Below the pieces are notes generated by a model. That model was given only the letters and a program-made list of their open reading frames with translations, did not search any database and was not told the origin of the DNA. This document shows, piece after piece, positions 15,797-38,242 of a stretch of 64,000 nucleotides of DNA. The translations under genes and the position numbers were made by a program. Source of the DNA: Pseudomonas sp. B6002 (GTDB lineage: Bacteria; Pseudomonadota; Gammaproteobacteria; Pseudomonadales; Pseudomonadaceae); NCBI RefSeq assembly GCF_013385985.1, contig NZ_JACAOY010000002.1:124001-188000 (forward strand), read 5' to 3'. Position 1 is the first letter of the stretch; every line of letters begins with the position of its first letter.

Positions 15797-17242
15797 ATGC
15801 TCGAAGTCATCAACGACTTCCTCTCAGGGAAAGTACTGATCGTGCTCATTGTCGGGCTCGGCGGTTATTTCACGATTCGCTCGCGTTTCGTACAGCTGCG
15901 TCACTTTTTCCACATGTTCTCGGTGTTTCGCGACAGCCTGAAGAACAGCTCCGACCAACTCAGCTCGTTCCAGGCGCTGATGCTCAGCCTGGCTGGCCGT
16001 GTAGGTGCGGGTAACATCGCCGGTGTCGGCATTGCCGTGACCCTGGGTGGCCCGGGTGCCGTGTTCTGGATGTGGGTCACCGCGTTGGTGGGCATGTCGT
16101 CGAGCTTTATCGAGTGCTCCCTCGGCCAGCTGTACAAGCGCACCGATGCCGAAGGCACCTTCCGTGGCGGCCCGGCGTATTACATCCAGCACGGCCTGCA
16201 AAAACGCTGGTTGGGTATGGTCATTGCGTTCCTGTTGCTGGTGACCTTCGGTTTCGCCTTCAACGGCCTGCAAGCCCACGCCGTGACCCACTCCCTGAAC
16301 AGCGCCTTTGGCCTGGACACCACCTACACCGGCCTGGCCCTGGCCGTGTTGCTGGGCATGGTATTCATCGGCGGGATCAAGCGTATCGCCTCGATCGCCG
16401 ACCTGCTGGTGCCGGTCAAGACCCTGATCTACATCGCGGTGACCCTGTACGTGATCGTGCTGCAGTTCGACCACGTGCCGGCCATGCTCGCGACCATCGT
16501 CAAGAGCGCCTTCGGCCTCGACCAGGCCTTCGGTGGCCTGGTCGGCAGCGCGATCATCATGGGTGTGAAGCGCGGCGTGTTCGCCAACGAAGCCGGCCTG
16601 GGCAGTGCGCCTAACGTGGCCGCAGTCGCTTCCGTAGAACACCCGATCGCCCAAGGCGTGGTCCAGGCGTTCAGCGTGTTCCTCGACACCTTCGTGATCT
16701 GCACCTGCACCGCGCTGCTGATCCTGCTCTCCGGTTTCTACACCCCAGGCTTCGAAGGCGACGGCATTGCCCTGACCCAGAACTCCCTGGCCGCTGTAGT
16801 CGGTGACTGGGGCCGCATGTTCATCTCCGTGGCCCTGGCGTTGTTCGTGTTCACCTCGATCATGTACAACTACTACCTGGGCGAGAGCAACCTGCGTTTC
16901 CTGGTTGGCAACAACCGCAAGATGCTGATGGCCTACCGTGCAGTGGTGCTGGCGCTGATTTTCTGGGGCTCGATCGAGAACCTGAGCACCGTGTTCGCGT
17001 TCGCCGACATCACTATGACGATGCTCGCATTCGTCAACCTGTTCGCCCTGGCGTTCCTGTTCAAGATTGCCATGCGTATCCTGAACGACTACGACAACCA
17101 GCGTGCAGCGGGTATCAAGACCCCGGTGTTCGACTCCAGCCAGTTCTCTGACCTGGATCTGGACCTGAAGGCCTGGCCGGCCAACCCGGTGAAACCGCAA
17201 GCGGCCCCCTCGGCTGAACTGAACGCTCAAGCGCAACGCTAA
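15797..17242 (+). CDS. Sodium:alanine/glycine symporter, AGCS family
   Basis: Na+-coupled uptake of small neutral amino acids across the inner membrane. The 481-residue product shows the family's multi-helix profile and signatures 'SLAGRVGAGNIAGVGIAVTLGGPGAVFWMW' (near 60-90), 'GVKRGVFANEAGLGSAPNVAA' (near 260) and 'YYLGESNLRF' (near 355). The ATG at 15797 follows GAGGAAC and removes an unrelated 25-residue extension. A terminator follows, but the asparaginase gene begins only 76 bases later on the same strand. Confidence 0.92.
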   Translation: MLEVINDFLSGKVLIVLIVGLGGYFTIRSRFVQLRHFFHMFSVFRDSLKNSSDQLSSFQALMLSLAGRVGAGNIAGVGIAVTLGGPGAVFWMWVTALVGMSSSFIECSLGQLYKRTDAEGTFRGGPAYYIQHGLQKRWLGMVIAFLLLVTFGFAFNGLQAHAVTHSLNSAFGLDTTYTGLALAVLLGMVFIGGIKRIASIADLLVPVKTLIYIAVTLYVIVLQFDHVPAMLATIVKSAFGLDQAFGGLVGSAIIMGVKRGVFANEAGLGSAPNVAAVASVEHPIAQGVVQAFSVFLDTFVICTCTALLILLSGFYTPGFEGDGIALTQNSLAAVVGDWGRMFISVALALFVFTSIMYNYYLGESNLRFLVGNNRKMLMAYRAVVLALIFWGSIENLSTVFAFADITMTMLAFVNLFALAFLFKIAMRILNDYDNQRAAGIKTPVFDSSQFSDLDLDLKAWPANPVKPQAAPSAELNAQAQR

Positions 17243-17257
17243 GCGTAGATAGATGAC

Positions 17258-17302
17258 ACGCCGCCCGGCCTTGGGCATGCTCTGGGCCCGGCGGCGTTTT
17301 TC
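17258..17302 (+). terminator. Intrinsic terminator after the AGCS symporter gene
   Basis: Arms ACGCCGCC (17258-17265) and GGCGGCGT (17290-17297), extended inward by further GC pairing, followed by TTTTTC. It separates the symporter from ansA. Confidence 0.85.
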
Positions 17303-17318
17303 GTTCAGGAGAATCTCA

Positions 17319-18296
17319 ATGTCAGCATCCAATAACGTCATGGTGCTCTACACCGGCGGCACCATCGGCATGCAGGCCAGCGCCAACGGCCTGGCCCCCG
17401 CATCCGGTTTCGAAGCGCGCATGCGCGAACAGCTTGCCGGCCAGCCACTGCCCACCTGGCGTTTCCAGGAAATGACCCCGCTGATCGACAGCGCCAACAT
17501 GACGCCCGCGTATTGGCAGCGCCTGCGCATCGCCGTGATCGACGCGGTGGACCAAGGCTGCGATGGCGTGCTGATCCTGCACGGCACCGACACGCTGGCT
17601 TACAGCGCGGCGGCCATGAGCTTTCAACTGTTGGGCTTGCCGGCACCGGTGGTGTTCACCGGTTCCATGTTGCCGGCCGGCGTGCCGGACAGCGATGCGT
17701 GGGAAAACGTCAGTGGCGCCTTGCAGGCACTGGGCACGGGCCTGACGCCGGGTGTGCACCTGCATTTCCACGGCGCAATGATCGCGCCGACCCGCTGCGC
17801 GAAGATCCGCAGTTTCGGCCGCAACCCGTTCGCGGCGCTGAATCGCCAAGGCGGTGCAGCCCGTGCAGACACCCTTCCCCAGATTCTGGACTATCGCCTG
17901 CCCAAAGCCCTGGTCACCGTCGGCGTACTGCCGCTGGTGCCGGGTATTGGCGCTGCGCAGTTGGACGCCATGATCGGCAGCGGCATCCAGGGCCTGATTC
18001 TTGAATGCTTCGGCAGCGGCACCGGCCCGAGTGACAATGCGGGCTTTCTCGCCAGCCTCCAGCTCGCCCAGGAGCACGGCATTGTGGTAGTGGCGATCAC
18101 CCAATGCCATGAGGGCGGTGTGGAGCTGGATGTCTATGAGGCCGGCAGCCGCCTGCGCCGCGTCGGTGTGCTGTCCGGTGGTGGCATGACCCGCGAGGCG
18201 GCGTTCGGCAAGCTCAATGCGCTGCTCGGCAGCGGGCTCGACACTCAGGAAGTACGGCGTCTGGTGGAGCTGGACCTGTGCGGCGAGTTGCAGTGA
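17319..18296 (+). CDS. ansA: L-asparaginase (AnsA-like)
   Basis: Hydrolyses L-asparagine to aspartate and ammonia. The 325-residue product has both catalytic Thr motifs of the family: 'VLYTGGTIGM' (near 9-18) and 'LHGTDTLAYSA' (near 87-97), plus 'GSMLP' and 'QCHEGGV'. No signal peptide is present, which points to a cytoplasmic type I enzyme rather than the periplasmic type II. The ATG at 17319 follows AGGAGA. Its product aspartate is the substrate of the nearby aspA. Confidence 0.92.
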   Translation: MSASNNVMVLYTGGTIGMQASANGLAPASGFEARMREQLAGQPLPTWRFQEMTPLIDSANMTPAYWQRLRIAVIDAVDQGCDGVLILHGTDTLAYSAAAMSFQLLGLPAPVVFTGSMLPAGVPDSDAWENVSGALQALGTGLTPGVHLHFHGAMIAPTRCAKIRSFGRNPFAALNRQGGAARADTLPQILDYRLPKALVTVGVLPLVPGIGAAQLDAMIGSGIQGLILECFGSGTGPSDNAGFLASLQLAQEHGIVVVAITQCHEGGVELDVYEAGSRLRRVGVLSGGGMTREAAFGKLNALLGSGLDTQEVRRLVELDLCGELQ

Positions 18297-18332
18297 ATAC
18301 CCGCCTTACATAAGCACCACCGCACCCGGTTC

Positions 18333-18403
18333 GACGCTTCCTAGCATGGCAACGCCCAGGTTTTTACTGGGCCTGTTGCCATTCTTTCGTGCAAGGAAGC
18401 GTC
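18333..18403 (+). promoter_or_regulatory. Long hairpin sequestering the ribosome-binding site of the DUF6543 gene
   Basis: Outer stem GACGCTTCCT (18333-18342) pairs perfectly with AGGAAGCGTC (18394-18403), which contains the AGGAAG Shine-Dalgarno and ends one base before the ATG at 18404. Inside it, ATGGCAAC-GCCCAG pairs with CTGGGC-(CT)-GTTGCCAT (18346-18382), an inner hairpin followed by ATTCTTTC that may also act as the ansA terminator. If transcribed as one RNA, translation of the downstream gene would be blocked until the outer stem opens. Confidence 0.7.
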
Positions 18404-21400
18404 ATGACTGCATCCCCTTCAACCGAACCTCATCAAAGCCTCACTGACGCGCTGATCGCGCAAATGTCCACTGGCCCCGCGTTTCGCGAAGTGGCCGCCA
18501 CCTTGCTGCGTGAGCAATTGCAGGCGCTGTACCCCACGCTCGATATCGACCCGAATACCGCCGTGGTCGGTACTCCGCTGTGGGACATCGAGGATGACCA
18601 GGTCGTACCGGCCGGCCGCCATTACCAGGTGCTCACCGACGTGCTCGCCGTGCAATCCGTGTTGGCAGTGCCTACGCTCTATATCGAAGGCCAGCATTTT
18701 CTGACCCAACTGCCCGTCATTGAGCCAGCGATCCACCTGCCGGTGCGCATCCTCGATATCGCCAGTATCCTCAATACCCTGGCACCCGTGATGTTGCGCG
18801 GCTACCAACAGGCCCAACTGGAGTACTGGAACACCACCGAAAGTGACAGCGGCCCACGCTGGCACGGGCTATCGACCGTGCTGCGCGACCACTGGAACCT
18901 GGAACAAGTGCCTGGCTGGACCACGGCTGATTGCCAAATGGCACGCCAGCTGTTTCAAACCCCGGACGCGGCTACTCGCAAGCAACAAAACCCAAATGGC
19001 GCTCGAGCCTATGTGGTGGATGTCGACCAGATTGATGACGCGGGCAATACCTCCCACCTTGATGAGAACCTGATCAGCGTGCTTATCGGCAAACCGGAAG
19101 GCACCGAGGTGGTCCTCACCCATTCACTGATGGCGGGTTTCAAGAAGTACCGCTCCCTCGACGAACTGGGCAAGGACCTGTCACTGCCGGCGGTGTACAA
19201 AAAACTGGAGTGGCGCCTGGTCGAACCTGATGGTGATTTTTTCGACTACCTGGCCATTGCTTTCATCGGCATCCAGACCAAGGCGATCGGAGCTATCGAC
19301 TTTTCCTACCTGCGCGAGCCGAACGTTTCACAGCACGTGCTGGCGCAACCGCCAACCCCCCGCGCCAAACGAAGCACACCGGCCCTGCTCGATTACATCC
19401 AAGCGCTCCCCGACTGGCTCACCAGCGCCACTGCGGCAGACCAGGCGGCGTACTCACGCCACCTCAAGGACCTGGCAGCCCTGCATAACGCCAACGAGGG
19501 CCGTACTTATGACGAAGGCATCAGCCCGCTCCCTCAATACACGCTCGAACAGCTCAGCGCGGAAATGCTCAAGGACCACCCCGACGCACTCACGCAGTGG
19601 CTGAGCGACCTCGACATCGTCGTGCGCAGCCCCGTGGTCTGGGGCACATTCGCGGTGCCGGGGCAAATCGACACCACGGTGTTCAGCCTGGTGGAACTGG
19701 CCCTGCAAAACCTGATTGCCTTGCCGCTGGGCATCAAGTCCCTGCGCCTGCGAAACCCACACCCGCTGCCGGACTGGCTGACCGTCGAGTACCTGGAAGG
19801 CTTGATCAGCCGCGTGGACATCGGCAGCACCTACCTGGCGCTGATCCGCCGGACGCTGCTGGATAACGCTCAAGAGTCCGCACGCCGACGCTCGCTCTAC
19901 GCCCAGCACTTGCGCATTCAACTGCCGTTATTGGCTTTGCAGTGCAAGTTGCGCCACGAAGATGGCATCGATGAACAAGGCTATGCGTATGTAAAAGCCG
20001 TGACACAGGCTGAGACCGCAGAACGCCAGGTACAGGGCCAGCGCATTGTGATGCGAGCGCTGGCGTTCGTGCCAACCCGTCGGCAGGGCAACATTGCCGA
20101 CCAGGTCACCAATATGTTCGTGATCGGGCCGGAAGACCCGACCACCGGCCCCTGCCTACTGTACCGGCCGCTGCTGGACAAACCCCTTTCCCAGTTCCCT
20201 TCGCAAAGCAACCTGCTCTATGCCTTGCAGCAGTCCAGAAGCCTGCGCGATTCGGTGCTGGCGTGGCTGCCGGATGACGTGCGCGATGATTATGCCCAAT
20301 ACGTGTTTCCCGGCGACCTGCCGTCGCCCTGGGCCGTGGTCGAATTCCTGGTAGACCCGTTCAAGCTATGGATCATGGGCGGGCCGCTGGCGCTCGGCCA
20401 GGAGGCCATCGAAGGCGACCTGCCAGGCGTACTGTACGATGCCAATGCCAACGCGCTGATCACTCTCGCCGACCGGCAATCGGTGTCCAACGCCGAAGCG
20501 CGCTGGGCCACGTTCAAACGCGCCGGCTGGCTGATCTTCAATAGCGCACTGCCGTTTCTGGGGCGCACCGTCGGTGTGGCGGCCTGGATCTGGCAAATCA
20601 TGGTTCAGCTGCAAACCGTGGTCGACGCCCAGGAGCATCCCGAGCAGCGATCCACCTGGGCCGCACTCGCCGAATTGCTGCTCAACCTCGGCACGGCCCT
20701 GACCCTGCACAGTGTCACCCGCACCACACCACGCCGACCAACGCTCGGCAACACTGTGGTGGTGCCAAAACAACCGTCCCCTCCAACACCCGTCAGCATC
20801 ACTCGACTGACGCCGATTGCCTCAGACGCGCTGATCGCCCATGACCAGCCCTTGCACGTCAGCGGCGCAATCAACCGGGCGTCTACCCGCCTGGCCACCG
20901 TGCTGGACAGCTTCATGGTGGCCAAACCCGACGCGCTGGAAGAAGTCCACAACAAACCTGGGGCTTATCATCTTCTGTATGGCGACGGGCAAAGCTGGTA
21001 CGCCCCGGTGGCACATCGCTGGTTCAAAGTGTTGGTCGACGAAAACGACGATGTACAGATTGTCGACCCCGCGCAACCCAGTCGTACCGGCCCGCTGTTG
21101 ATTCACAACCGCAGCGGTCAGTGGTTTATCGATACCCGCCTGCGTCTGCGGGGAGGCGGTCCCAAGCTCCTGACCGCCAAGGCCCGCGCGCAAGCCAGGC
21201 AAAAGGCGCAGCAATTGCGCGAGCGCCTGGAGGCCTTCGAAAAAGGTAAACGGGCCGCCCAAGACGCGCTGCAACGGGCCCGGCAAGCGTTGGACGCCGC
21301 GCCCTCCTCCTCGGCCGATGCGCTCAGGCACACCTATATCCAGACCCTGGAGACCCAGCGTACGGAATACGAGTCGGCCCTGCAGATGCTCAAGGAGATG

Positions 21401-23005
21401 AATGTCCACGAACCCAGCGCAGAGTACGCGCCCAAGGCCCTCAACTACATCAAGGCCCAGGCCAGGCTGACCCAGGCCGCGCTCAGCGATATCCTCGCCC
21501 GCTTCACCCCCAAGTGGCGCACCGTGCACGATCAGATGCAGCGCCAGATCGAAGTGCCGCAAGAGCGTCATATCGAGGACTTTCGCGAAATGCGCGAGCT
21601 GGCCGGCAAGCTGCTCGTGCAGTTGGACTACATGCACGGTCGCTTCATCCAACTCAAGGGCCTGGCCAGGGATGGTGCGCTGTTACTCAATACCCTCAAG
21701 GGCTCGATGCCGGTCTACACCCCCGACGACCTCAAGGCGATACGCATATCACTGACGCGCAACCTGTGCCTGCCCGAGACAAGCATCAAGAGCACGCCGC
21801 AAGCCTGGTTGGCGATTGACCAGATTGTCGACACCGCCGACATCGCGATCCAATGCCTGCGTGACACCCTGGAGGAGCACAGCGATCGACGCCTGGACGA
21901 ACGCATTGATACCTTGAGCAGCCTGATCGAACAGTTTCAATTACTGGACGAGCGCTTGCAGGATTTTCCCGTGGAGTTCTCCGAACAAGCTATCACCGAT
22001 CAGTTGCTTGAACTGCGCGGGGAGCTGAGCGAGTTCCAGCACCGGGCCACCAGCAACCTCGGCATGCTGAGCCTGGAAAGAACCGCGCTCAGAAACCGCC
22101 CCACCCCGCCGTCTACGCCGCCGCGCCCCAGGAAACAATTTATCCACACCCGCTACAACGGCCTGTTGATCGGTGAGCCGCGCCTGACCGACTTGGGCCT
22201 GGAAACCGGCCTCGTGGATATTCGCTCACCCCTGACCCAGCAGGTGCTGGCTACCTATCATGAAAAAACCAAGGGCGTCTGGGTTGTACGCGACCGCACC
22301 CCGCCGCCGTCGGCCGGGCCCATTGCCGTGGATCTGCAGCAGAGCATCAGCCAGGGCCAGCGCCTGTTGAGTGAGCTGCCCGCATTTCTCGCACGGGCCC
22401 GTACCCACGCCAACCTCGCTGATCGTGCACCGTTTGGCATCGAGCACTTGTACCACCAGCATGCCAGTAGGCTGGAGTTGGCGCGTCACTCGATCGAACA
22501 GGCCCTGACGCAGCGCAACATCACCGACAGTGAAGCCTTGTCAGCACCGGCCAGCGCCGTGATCAAAGCCCTCGACGACGCCTTGGCCGACCTCTATCAG
22601 CAGAGCAATCAGCTGGTGCAACGCACGCTCAAGCTGCGGCCACCCACCGTATCGGGGGTTGAATGGCTCAAGCGGCACAATGTGATATCCATCAAGAAAA
22701 CCGTGGCCCGCCGTCGCATCAAGTCCATAAACCCGGACTACCTGGATGAATACACCATCAGCGATCGCGTGACGGGGCAGGTGCTGTGGTACGCACATTT
22801 TCATTACAGCACTCACTGGACACCGGACAAAGCCTACCTGTCTGCCCGCCTGAAAACCCCGGACGAGTACCGCCTGGGCGCGGCTGCCGATACGGCCAAG
22901 GGCCTTGACCGCGCCCGGACCGTGGCGTTCTATCGCAGCGAGATAAGCCTGGAACAGGCCCGCGAACTGTTTTTTCAACGACCGAAGTCCGAGTCCGGGA
23001 ACTGA
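18404..23005 (+). CDS. Large DUF6543 ('dermonecrotic toxin domain')-like protein
   Basis: A 1533-residue protein without signal peptide. Its N-terminal two thirds resembles the large Pseudomonas proteins annotated with a DUF6543/dermonecrotic-toxin-like domain. Visible parts: a shared block 'LRIQLPLLALQCKLR..DGIDEQGY' near 505-530; a hydrophobic stretch near 707-735; a charged coiled coil near 924-966 ('QKAQQLRERLEAFEKGKRA'); Pro-rich hinge near 1235; and a C-terminal block with 'LWYAHFHY' near 1460. No LRR or NEL ligase domain is visible. A shorter paralogue lies at 26309. The family name suggests a toxin, but target, export route and activity are unknown; no immunity gene is evident. The Shine-Dalgarno is within a hairpin. 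Confidence 0.7.
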   Translation: MTASPSTEPHQSLTDALIAQMSTGPAFREVAATLLREQLQALYPTLDIDPNTAVVGTPLWDIEDDQVVPAGRHYQVLTDVLAVQSVLAVPTLYIEGQHFLTQLPVIEPAIHLPVRILDIASILNTLAPVMLRGYQQAQLEYWNTTESDSGPRWHGLSTVLRDHWNLEQVPGWTTADCQMARQLFQTPDAATRKQQNPNGARAYVVDVDQIDDAGNTSHLDENLISVLIGKPEGTEVVLTHSLMAGFKKYRSLDELGKDLSLPAVYKKLEWRLVEPDGDFFDYLAIAFIGIQTKAIGAIDFSYLREPNVSQHVLAQPPTPRAKRSTPALLDYIQALPDWLTSATAADQAAYSRHLKDLAALHNANEGRTYDEGISPLPQYTLEQLSAEMLKDHPDALTQWLSDLDIVVRSPVVWGTFAVPGQIDTTVFSLVELALQNLIALPLGIKSLRLRNPHPLPDWLTVEYLEGLISRVDIGSTYLALIRRTLLDNAQESARRRSLYAQHLRIQLPLLALQCKLRHEDGIDEQGYAYVKAVTQAETAERQVQGQRIVMRALAFVPTRRQGNIADQVTNMFVIGPEDPTTGPCLLYRPLLDKPLSQFPSQSNLLYALQQSRSLRDSVLAWLPDDVRDDYAQYVFPGDLPSPWAVVEFLVDPFKLWIMGGPLALGQEAIEGDLPGVLYDANANALITLADRQSVSNAEARWATFKRAGWLIFNSALPFLGRTVGVAAWIWQIMVQLQTVVDAQEHPEQRSTWAALAELLLNLGTALTLHSVTRTTPRRPTLGNTVVVPKQPSPPTPVSITRLTPIASDALIAHDQPLHVSGAINRASTRLATVLDSFMVAKPDALEEVHNKPGAYHLLYGDGQSWYAPVAHRWFKVLVDENDDVQIVDPAQPSRTGPLLIHNRSGQWFIDTRLRLRGGGPKLLTAKARAQARQKAQQLRERLEAFEKGKRAAQDALQRARQALDAAPSSSADALRHTYIQTLETQRTEYESALQMLKEMNVHEPSAEYAPKALNYIKAQARLTQAALSDILARFTPKWRTVHDQMQRQIEVPQERHIEDFREMRELAGKLLVQLDYMHGRFIQLKGLARDGALLLNTLKGSMPVYTPDDLKAIRISLTRNLCLPETSIKSTPQAWLAIDQIVDTADIAIQCLRDTLEEHSDRRLDERIDTLSSLIEQFQLLDERLQDFPVEFSEQAITDQLLELRGELSEFQHRATSNLGMLSLERTALRNRPTPPSTPPRPRKQFIHTRYNGLLIGEPRLTDLGLETGLVDIRSPLTQQVLATYHEKTKGVWVVRDRTPPPSAGPIAVDLQQSISQGQRLLSELPAFLARARTHANLADRAPFGIEHLYHQHASRLELARHSIEQALTQRNITDSEALSAPASAVIKALDDALADLYQQSNQLVQRTLKLRPPTVSGVEWLKRHNVISIKKTVARRRIKSINPDYLDEYTISDRVTGQVLWYAHFHYSTHWTPDKAYLSARLKTPDEYRLGAAADTAKGLDRARTVAFYRSEISLEQARELFFQRPKSESGN

Positions 23006-36846: not shown

Positions 36847-36920
36847 TCGCTGCGCACGAGAGACGACTCCTGCAAACCAGGGGTCGATGACCTGACAGTT
36901 ATCCCCCCGCCACCCCGCTA

Positions 36921-36954
36921 AATTCCCGACCTCATTCAACAGAGGTCGGGAATT
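36921..36954 (+). promoter_or_regulatory. Perfect hairpin covering the ribosome-binding site of the short autotransporter
   Basis: AATTCCCGACCTC (36921-36933) and GAGGTCGGGAATT (36942-36954) form a perfect 13-bp stem with an 8-base loop. The right arm contains the only Shine-Dalgarno (GAGGT, 9 bases before the ATG at 36956) and ends one base before the start codon. No U-tract follows, so it does not look like a terminator. Sequestration of the ribosome site is the simplest reading. Confidence 0.78.
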
Positions 36955-36955
36955 C

Positions 36956-38242
36956 ATGCCCCATATACCCCGTAGATCAGCATTCATCATCAGCCTTGTG
37001 GCTGCTGTCGGTTTTCAACTGGCGTATGCCCGTGGTGATATCGAATACCTGCCGTACTCGATCCAACCGTATGGCGCGCTTGATGAGTGGAACTATCCGC
37101 CTGAAGAGCCAGCGGCGCCTTTGGACAACTACCTTGCCCGGCAGGCCACCACCTACAACGGTTTGCAGGTGGCCCGGGTACTGGACCCGGCGCCGATTCG
37201 CCTGCTGGAGTCAGGCCAACTGACCTCCGAACAGCTCAAGGCCCTGCAAAAGTTGGACGATGCGCTCAAGAGACAACCGGGTGCCTATGGCGCAGCCCTG
37301 GAGCAACTGGCGGGCAGCCAACATGCCAACCTGGCCGCTGCCACCCAAAACACCACACAACAACTGAGCCACCGCTTGCTCACCACCCTGCGCGAATTGC
37401 CGACGGACGACGATGGCCACTTCTGGGTAAAAAACCTCGGCAATGAAGGCCGCCTCGACGGACAGCGCGACAGTGCTGGCTTGAAACAGGGCACACAAGG
37501 CCTGCTGTTGGGTGCGGATTGGGCATTGGACCATGCCTGGCGGGTCGGCCTGCTGGGCGCAAAGTCCACCCATCGCCTGGACGCCAAACGCTTCGCCGCC
37601 GAACTGGACAGCTGGCACCTAGGCGCCTACGCCGTACGCCAGGACGGCCCGCTGGCCGTACGCCTTGGCGCGATCTACAGCAACCATGCCGGGCAGAACA
37701 AACGTGCAGTCGAGATTCTGGGCTACAAGAACTCGCTCAAAGGCAATTACGACGCGACAAGCCAGACGGCCTTCGCCGAATTCGGCTATCAGCTGGGCCG
37801 TGGGGACTTCAGCCTTGAGCCGTTTGCCGGCCTTGGCTACCAGCGCTATCAACGCGACGGCTTCCAGGAGCATGGCGGGCTGACGGCGCTGAATGTCCGC
37901 GCCCAAACCCAGCAGAACGTCAACAGCACCCTCGGCCTGCGCCTGGCGAAGTCGTACCGGTTCGATAACCAGATGATCCTTACGCCGCATTTGAGCACCG
38001 GCTGGAAACACCTGTATGGCGATGTGGACAGTCGGGTACGCCAATCTTTCCGATATGGCGGCGGCACCATTGGCGACTTCACCGTCCAAGGCACATCTCT
38101 GGACCGCAACAGCCTCAACCTGCAGGCGGGGTTGGACCTGGCCCTGACGAACAACCATAGCATCGGCCTGGCCTACGCCAGCGAGTCCGGCACCCACAGC
38201 AGCAGCCAGAGCCTGACCGGGCAGTGGCGCATGCGGTTCTGA
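36956..38242 (+). CDS. Nearly passenger-less autotransporter beta-barrel protein
   Basis: A 428-residue protein with signal peptide (1-25, ending AYA), about 75 residues of low-complexity sequence ('YLPYSIQPYGALDEWNYPPEEPAAPLD' region) and then the same junction helix and outer-membrane barrel as the preceding gene: 'AALEQLAGSQHANLAAAT', 'LLLGADWALDHAWRVGLLG', 'GLGYQRYQRDGF', 'NVNSTLGLRLA', 'GWKHLYGDVDS' and terminal Phe. It appears to be a tandem duplicate that has lost the beta-helix passenger. It may be a porin-like barrel or helper, or simply a relic, though the frame and signal peptide are intact. Confidence 0.87.
   Translation: MPHIPRRSAFIISLVAAVGFQLAYARGDIEYLPYSIQPYGALDEWNYPPEEPAAPLDNYLARQATTYNGLQVARVLDPAPIRLLESGQLTSEQLKALQKLDDALKRQPGAYGAALEQLAGSQHANLAAATQNTTQQLSHRLLTTLRELPTDDDGHFWVKNLGNEGRLDGQRDSAGLKQGTQGLLLGADWALDHAWRVGLLGAKSTHRLDAKRFAAELDSWHLGAYAVRQDGPLAVRLGAIYSNHAGQNKRAVEILGYKNSLKGNYDATSQTAFAEFGYQLGRGDFSLEPFAGLGYQRYQRDGFQEHGGLTALNVRAQTQQNVNSTLGLRLAKSYRFDNQMILTPHLSTGWKHLYGDVDSRVRQSFRYGGGTIGDFTVQGTSLDRNSLNLQAGLDLALTNNHSIGLAYASESGTHSSSQSLTGQWRMRF

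Follow-up and report, generated by a model that had tools for sequence, protein, structure and literature searches.

Fold-back inhibition of the IS10/Tn10 transposase was reportedly described by Davis, Simons and Kleckner in 1985. In IS10, only RNA that comes from an outside promoter has both arms of the inverted repeat and hides the Shine-Dalgarno sequence (SD). Class II activator-dependent promoters have a dyad that overlaps the -35 region and a -10 element, and lack a -35 consensus. Insertion sequences can also carry 5′ terminators, which are supposed to silence a harmful gene against incoming RNA (PMC2965389).

The window that we analysed, a stretch of 64,000 nt from Pseudomonas sp. B6002, has at positions 18333-18403 the inverted repeat of fold-back inhibition, with the SD inside its right arm; this hairpin, the genes on either side of it and the promoter-like elements described below all lie on the + strand. 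A first-pass annotation had presented the segment as two complementary arms around an inner hairpin, and its description proved accurate: the left arm, the anti-Shine-Dalgarno GACGCTTCCT (18333-18342), is the exact complement of the right arm, AGGAAGCGTC (18394-18403), which contains the SD AGGAAG and whose end at 18403 abuts the ATG at 18404. In the predicted fold these arms form an outer stem of 10 bp, inside which lie three further helices, GCA/TGC (18344-46/18390-92), TGGCAAC/GTTGCCA (18347-53/18375-81) and GCCCAG/CTGGGC (18354-59/18367-72). The last of these gives an inner stem-loop at 18354-18372 that is predicted both in read-through RNA and in RNA from the gene's own promoter. The predicted fold of 18325-18425 reaches -46.4 kcal/mol, compared with -24.9 (sd 3.1) for shuffled sequences (z -7.0; 0 of 200 shuffles as good), and the longer segment 18270-18433 has a fold z of -4.9 against its shuffles. 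We regard the hairpin over the SD as confirmed. Searches of the window against Rfam at the gathering score gave 0 matches, with no known riboswitch or RNA thermometer family among them, and a comparison of the leader with a plasmid collection also returned no match.

The gene behind the hairpin (18404-23005) encodes a toxin-like protein of 1533 aa, in which a whole-genome profile search placed a ToxA_N domain (PF20178) at 19559-20254 with 77.2 bits against a cut-off of 27. The DUF6543 label that the gene had received earlier was right in substance, as the matched PF20178 is now named ToxA_N and we take the two names to be one accession. PF20178 was absent from the hmmscan list for the 1533-aa protein, although the whole-genome search recovered it at this score; NCBIfam listed no family for the protein, and none of the solved structures matched it. 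The domain was present in 5 of 6 homologues scanned, and homologues of the gene occurred in 116 of 150 genomes of the genus. In the whole-genome profile search of its own genome, 22 ToxA_N stretches were matched, 21 of them above the cut-off. Literature searches found nothing on DUF6543, nor on a 'dermonecrotic toxin domain' in Pseudomonas, and the accessible part of the dermonecrotic toxin literature for Pseudomonas fluorescens yielded nothing on the ToxA_N toxin-like family. Upstream lies an ansA-like asparaginase gene (17319-18296; Pfam PF00710 and PF17763), the start of which was picked by eye (the longest frame starts at 17253) and the stop codon of which (18294-18296) is 10 nt upstream of an operator-like site; ansA is the presumed source of any read-through RNA.

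Between the two genes we found a promoter-like pair that the first reading had missed. Its upstream element is TACATAAGCACCACC at 18307-18321, the right half of a dyad-like operator, TAnnTAnnYACCRCC, which is conserved at a fixed distance from a -10-like hexamer, TAGCAT (18342-18347), itself recognized by conservation and placed 27 nt after the Y of YACC (18315). Because of these two elements, transcription is predicted to start near 18353 (18352-18354), and with this start the left arm would consist of promoter spacer plus the first base of the -10-like hexamer and would therefore be absent from the gene's own mRNA. The dyad is centred at about -43 relative to the predicted start and a -35 consensus is absent, so that, judged by sequence, the segment has the arrangement of a class II activator-dependent promoter (dyad near -42, a -10, no -35 consensus), and 18307-18347 looks like an activator-type promoter. 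A consensus sigma-70 scan found no promoter at the locus.

Upstream of the homologues, TAnnTAnnYACCRCC is followed 26-28 nt on by TAnnnT in 62 of 88 cases. Measured between the Y of YACC and the T that opens TAnnnT, and counted within 4-49 nt, the distance was 26-28 in 62 of 66 site pairs and exactly 27 in 51. The pair is absent from 26 of the 88 upstreams, 17 of which belong to distant relatives (L073-L095). In a second set, drawn from named genomes, a script found the pair in 63 of 67 homologues of full length, at a distance of 26 or 27, a figure that includes two rows (L273, L294) resembling chance matches by eye. Across 399 genomes of the genus, the pattern of clade A, the clade that includes the window gene, has 53 occurrences in 51 genomes, all of them upstream of a homologue, compared with only 4 for the reversed pattern. 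Of 150 genomes, 16 have the perfect dyad form, GGYGGTANNTANNTACCRCC, and none has its reversed control; the 16 loci comprise 6 before distant toxin paralogues, 9 before an M3 peptidase-like frame (one is Peptidase_M3 by Pfam, the other 8 were assigned by likeness) and 1 other, and 14 of them have TAnnnT at 26-28. The M3 oligopeptidase-like genes (L165, L167, L169, L171-L174, L177, L178) have the operator dyad with TAnnnT 27 nt on, and the spacer there, GCGCTTCCT, looks complementary to the SD, AGGAAGACGC. A perfect operator dyad stands before an open frame without a Pfam match at L168:1501-1520. In the genome of the window itself, the degenerate operator pattern was uninformative (596 matches vs 1103 for the control), while the strict operator plus -10 pattern matched only at the window gene (control 1 match). 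Among 17 upstreams of ToxA_N genes in this genome (L215-L231), 2 carry the promoter-like pair under a strict rule (TAnCTAnnTA with TAnnnT at 27; other upstreams alike by eye were left uncounted), against a shuffled mean of 0.03.

Many of the homologues share a common upstream plan, in which TAnnTAnnYACCRCC is followed by a spacer, by CTAGCATG in clade A or a CTACCTTG-like word in clade B, and then by the hairpin and the SD. Although ansA adjoins 12 of 30 homologue loci, the same plan is also found beside other upstream genes, and the segment therefore accompanies the toxin-like gene rather than being just the terminator of ansA. We examined pairing between spacer and SD in clade-A leaders that had been cut from 57 to 44 by similarity; in 7 clade-A rows a rule was used to assign a different start codon, and for 8 homologue upstreams the nearest ATG was taken as the start. 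Across the 44 leaders, pairing of a spacer with the SD region of the same leader reaches -18.3 kcal/mol, compared with -13.5 kcal/mol for the SD regions of relatives (z -10.0; 0 of 10000 permutations). Controls gave z -2.9 for the reversed SD region, +0.5 and +0.5 for two stretches upstream of the operator, and -2.4 for the first 26 nt of the gene. The sub-clades of A gave -8.7 (n=31) and -2.7 (n=13), with reversed controls of -2.1 and -0.4. The 22 clade-A leaders that had been found by protein search, without the pattern, gave z -6.5 with a reversed control of -4.0, which shows that relatedness contributes to the pairing signal. In clade B (n=40) the spacer gave -5.0 and the -10 region -7.1, with controls of -1.5 and -2.5. 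From the 72 loci of the second set we dropped 5 that were partial, 4 without the promoter pair, 2 without a clear ATG or SD and 20 more that repeated the first set, which left 41, or 37 after reduction by similarity; loci not used before gave z -4.0 in clade A (n=11, control 0.0) and -4.2 in clade B (n=26, control +0.4).

Covariation of the arms across Pseudomonas relatives, which the first-pass annotation had named as a check, pointed the same way, as pairing is kept in the alignment as it is at the new loci. For the outer stem, a structure named by us and not predicted from the alignment, 8 of 12 pairs in the 44-leader alignment have changes on both sides and 71.7% of cells are paired; for the inner stem, changes on both sides occur at 4 of 6 pairs and 89.8% of cells are paired. 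The two stems together score 0.223 for covariation; shuffles average 0.109 (sd 0.010), and no slid structure exceeds 0.109. Given the 44 leaders, RNAalifold returned the inner hairpin and two short pairs but not the outer stem, and earlier runs on 20 and 10 leaders had predicted next to nothing.

We then compared the predicted accessibility of the SD in read-through RNA and in RNA from the predicted own promoter. Over the 44 clade-A leaders, the mean unpaired probability was 0.14 in read-through RNA and 0.46 in own-promoter RNA, the latter being the higher in 42 of 44; with the upstream part shuffled or swapped it was 0.36 and 0.29 (p 6.5e-10 and 1.7e-7). In clade B the corresponding values were 0.32 for read-through, 0.54 for own-promoter, 0.43 for shuffled and 0.44 for swapped RNA. 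The window itself shows 0.17 vs 0.29, a gap below the mean of the 44 leaders, and the fold of its own-promoter RNA is not unusual (z -0.46). Read-through RNA is plausible in clade A, since 25 of 44 leaders are preceded by ansA on the same strand, a co-directional open frame of at least 73 codons (a frame, which is not the same as a proven gene) ends 10-53 nt before the pattern in 38 of 44, and terminators are few: an upstream terminator was found in 1 of 44 leaders in clade A vs 25 of 40 in clade B. The z-score of the SD-hiding pairing is -2.82 in clade A and -1.03 in clade B. Within clade B, terminator presence and this pairing were unrelated (p 0.89), so that insulation as a purpose rests on one clade contrast.

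On balance, we think it somewhat more probable than not that the segment 18307-18403 combines an activator-type promoter and a built-in read-through lock. A regulator, likely an activator, would bind the dyad-like site at 18307-18321, and RNA polymerase would use TAGCAT and start near 18353. The mRNA made in this way would have the short stem-loop at 18354-18372 as its 5′ end and would have lost the partner of the SD, leaving it translatable. RNA entering from ansA, if it is made, would include the promoter sequence, and the spacer in that RNA would pair with the SD beside the start codon and block translation. As an arm upstream of the predicted start still pairs with the SD, it would act only in RNA from farther upstream, and the lock would close only on stray RNA from the upstream gene because the SD-hiding arm lies inside the putative promoter. 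This reading draws on what can be observed directly, namely the arms, their coevolution, two conserved elements at fixed spacing and an upstream gene that ends 10 nt before the site. Against it stand the lack of a sigma-70 consensus, the small exposure gap in the window, the 26 of 88 upstreams without the pair, the lack of any relation between terminator and lock within clade B, the effect of relatedness in the reversed controls and the failure of RNAalifold to predict the outer stem. More tentatively, we raise the possibility of a family-wide safety catch, in which the promoters of Pseudomonas ToxA_N toxin-like genes encode an anti-Shine-Dalgarno and protein would come only from regulated-promoter mRNA; this might extend to an accessory M3 oligopeptidase that shares the operator, with one activator governing the set and with read-through countered in some lineages by an upstream terminator and in others by the lock.

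The main rival of the read-through lock is ordinary SD-hiding control, in which transcription would start upstream of 18333, the whole fold would be part of the main mRNA and be opened by a protein, a small RNA or an RNase, and CTAGCATG would be an RNA motif and not a -10. Such a leader would account for the very stable whole fold and for the coevolution of the arms, as well as for the near invariance of CTAGCATG in clade A (though the pattern behind most rows requires CTAGCATG), and the start near 18353 that speaks for a lock is a prediction. We nevertheless think it unlikely, as TAnnnT stands at the same operator distance in clade B and beside the M3 peptidase gene, where the leaders differ, and no Rfam family was matched. 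In clade B, 25 of 40 loci have a terminator immediately before the site, which leaves little space for a farther promoter, and the promoter is therefore expected within the site and downstream of it. The same evidence bears on the translational control that the first-pass annotation had proposed: the stem does cover the SD and the pairing of its arms is kept by coevolution, whereas the idea that the gene's own mRNA is controlled by opening of the stem was not supported, the left arm being in the spacer of the promoter-like pair and the predicted start downstream of 18342, a position that the annotation itself had named as counting against its proposal. The proposal as a whole is partly supported, and what is left of it is translational control of read-through RNA. 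A temperature switch, which had also been suggested, was set aside, as a fold of -46 kcal/mol would fit it poorly.

The complementarity could also be a functionless inheritance among relatives in which promoter spacer and SD are each conserved separately. The core CCTG/CAGG pairs hardly vary on both sides and an effect of relatedness is visible in the reversed controls, yet changes on both sides at 8 of 12 outer pairs are difficult to reconcile with coincidence, as are the pairs that appear as T-A, A-T and G-C at one outer position and as T-A, C-G and G-C at another; replication in new loci with flat controls, and window arms that sit in another register and are still perfectly paired, make this explanation improbable. 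Least of all do we favour an ansA terminator or attenuator that covers the SD by chance, an alternative that had been offered along with the original description and now seems very improbable. A scan of 17200-18600 found no terminator-like site, that is, no GC-rich stem followed by a T run, and the T-tail score of the hairpin in the window is 2.48, whereas the stretches that precede clade-B operators have a median of 5.07. The stem also stands beside upstream genes other than ansA, even if ansA immediately precedes 25 of the 44 clade-A leaders, the GC-rich inner stem is followed by some T, and the T-tail score is at least 3.5 in 11 of these 44.

A second hairpin in the window, at 36921-36954, may be a similar case, judging by its sequence. 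The same layout had been pointed out there from the start, and we recovered a hairpin of 13 bp, with GAGG at the start of a right arm that ends 2 nt before the ATG at 36956, the start of an autotransporter-like gene (PF03797). A stem lies opposite the GAGG in 11 of 11 other orthologues examined (those among the 30 loci whose match begins at residue 1-6); it is shorter in two, and changes on both sides are visible by eye. This hairpin (36919-36956) directly follows CTAAATT or CTACATT, of which TAAATT/TACATT resembles a -10.

If the read-through lock is correct, one sequence would serve as promoter DNA and, when transcribed by accident, as a silencing arm for the gene behind it. This would explain what keeps toxin-like genes of the chromosome silent when no terminator stands upstream of them, would extend to host genes a trick known from insertion sequences, and would provide a sequence signature for spotting other insulated genes. 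The clear operator over Pseudomonas toxin-like genes points to a regulator yet to be assigned. As a caution, a hairpin that covers an SD should not be equated with a translational switch until the transcription start is known. A literature search on anti-SD, read-through transcript and Pseudomonas showed no such arrangement by title and abstract among the matches listed.

Compared with known systems, the locus resembles SD-hiding riboswitch leaders and RNA thermometers in that the SD lies in a stem beside the start codon, but differs from them in that the hiding arm is upstream of the predicted start and that Rfam gave no match. It has in common with class II promoters a dyad centred near -43 that overlaps the -35 region, a -10-like hexamer and no -35 consensus, and departs from them in that its spacer also encodes an anti-SD. 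The supposed purpose, silencing when RNA enters from outside, is that of the 5′ terminators of insertion sequences; those terminate, as the upstream terminators of clade B (25 of 40) may do, whereas the lock would hide the SD. Like IS10, the locus has an inverted repeat that flanks the gene's promoter (predicted here) and the SD in the right arm; unlike IS10, it belongs to a family of toxin-like genes on the chromosome, with a promoter of the operator type, and not to a mobile element, and is known here from sequence and predicted folds. The reading that we favour is a probable read-through lock, akin to the fold-back inhibition of IS10 and placed on a chromosomal toxin family.
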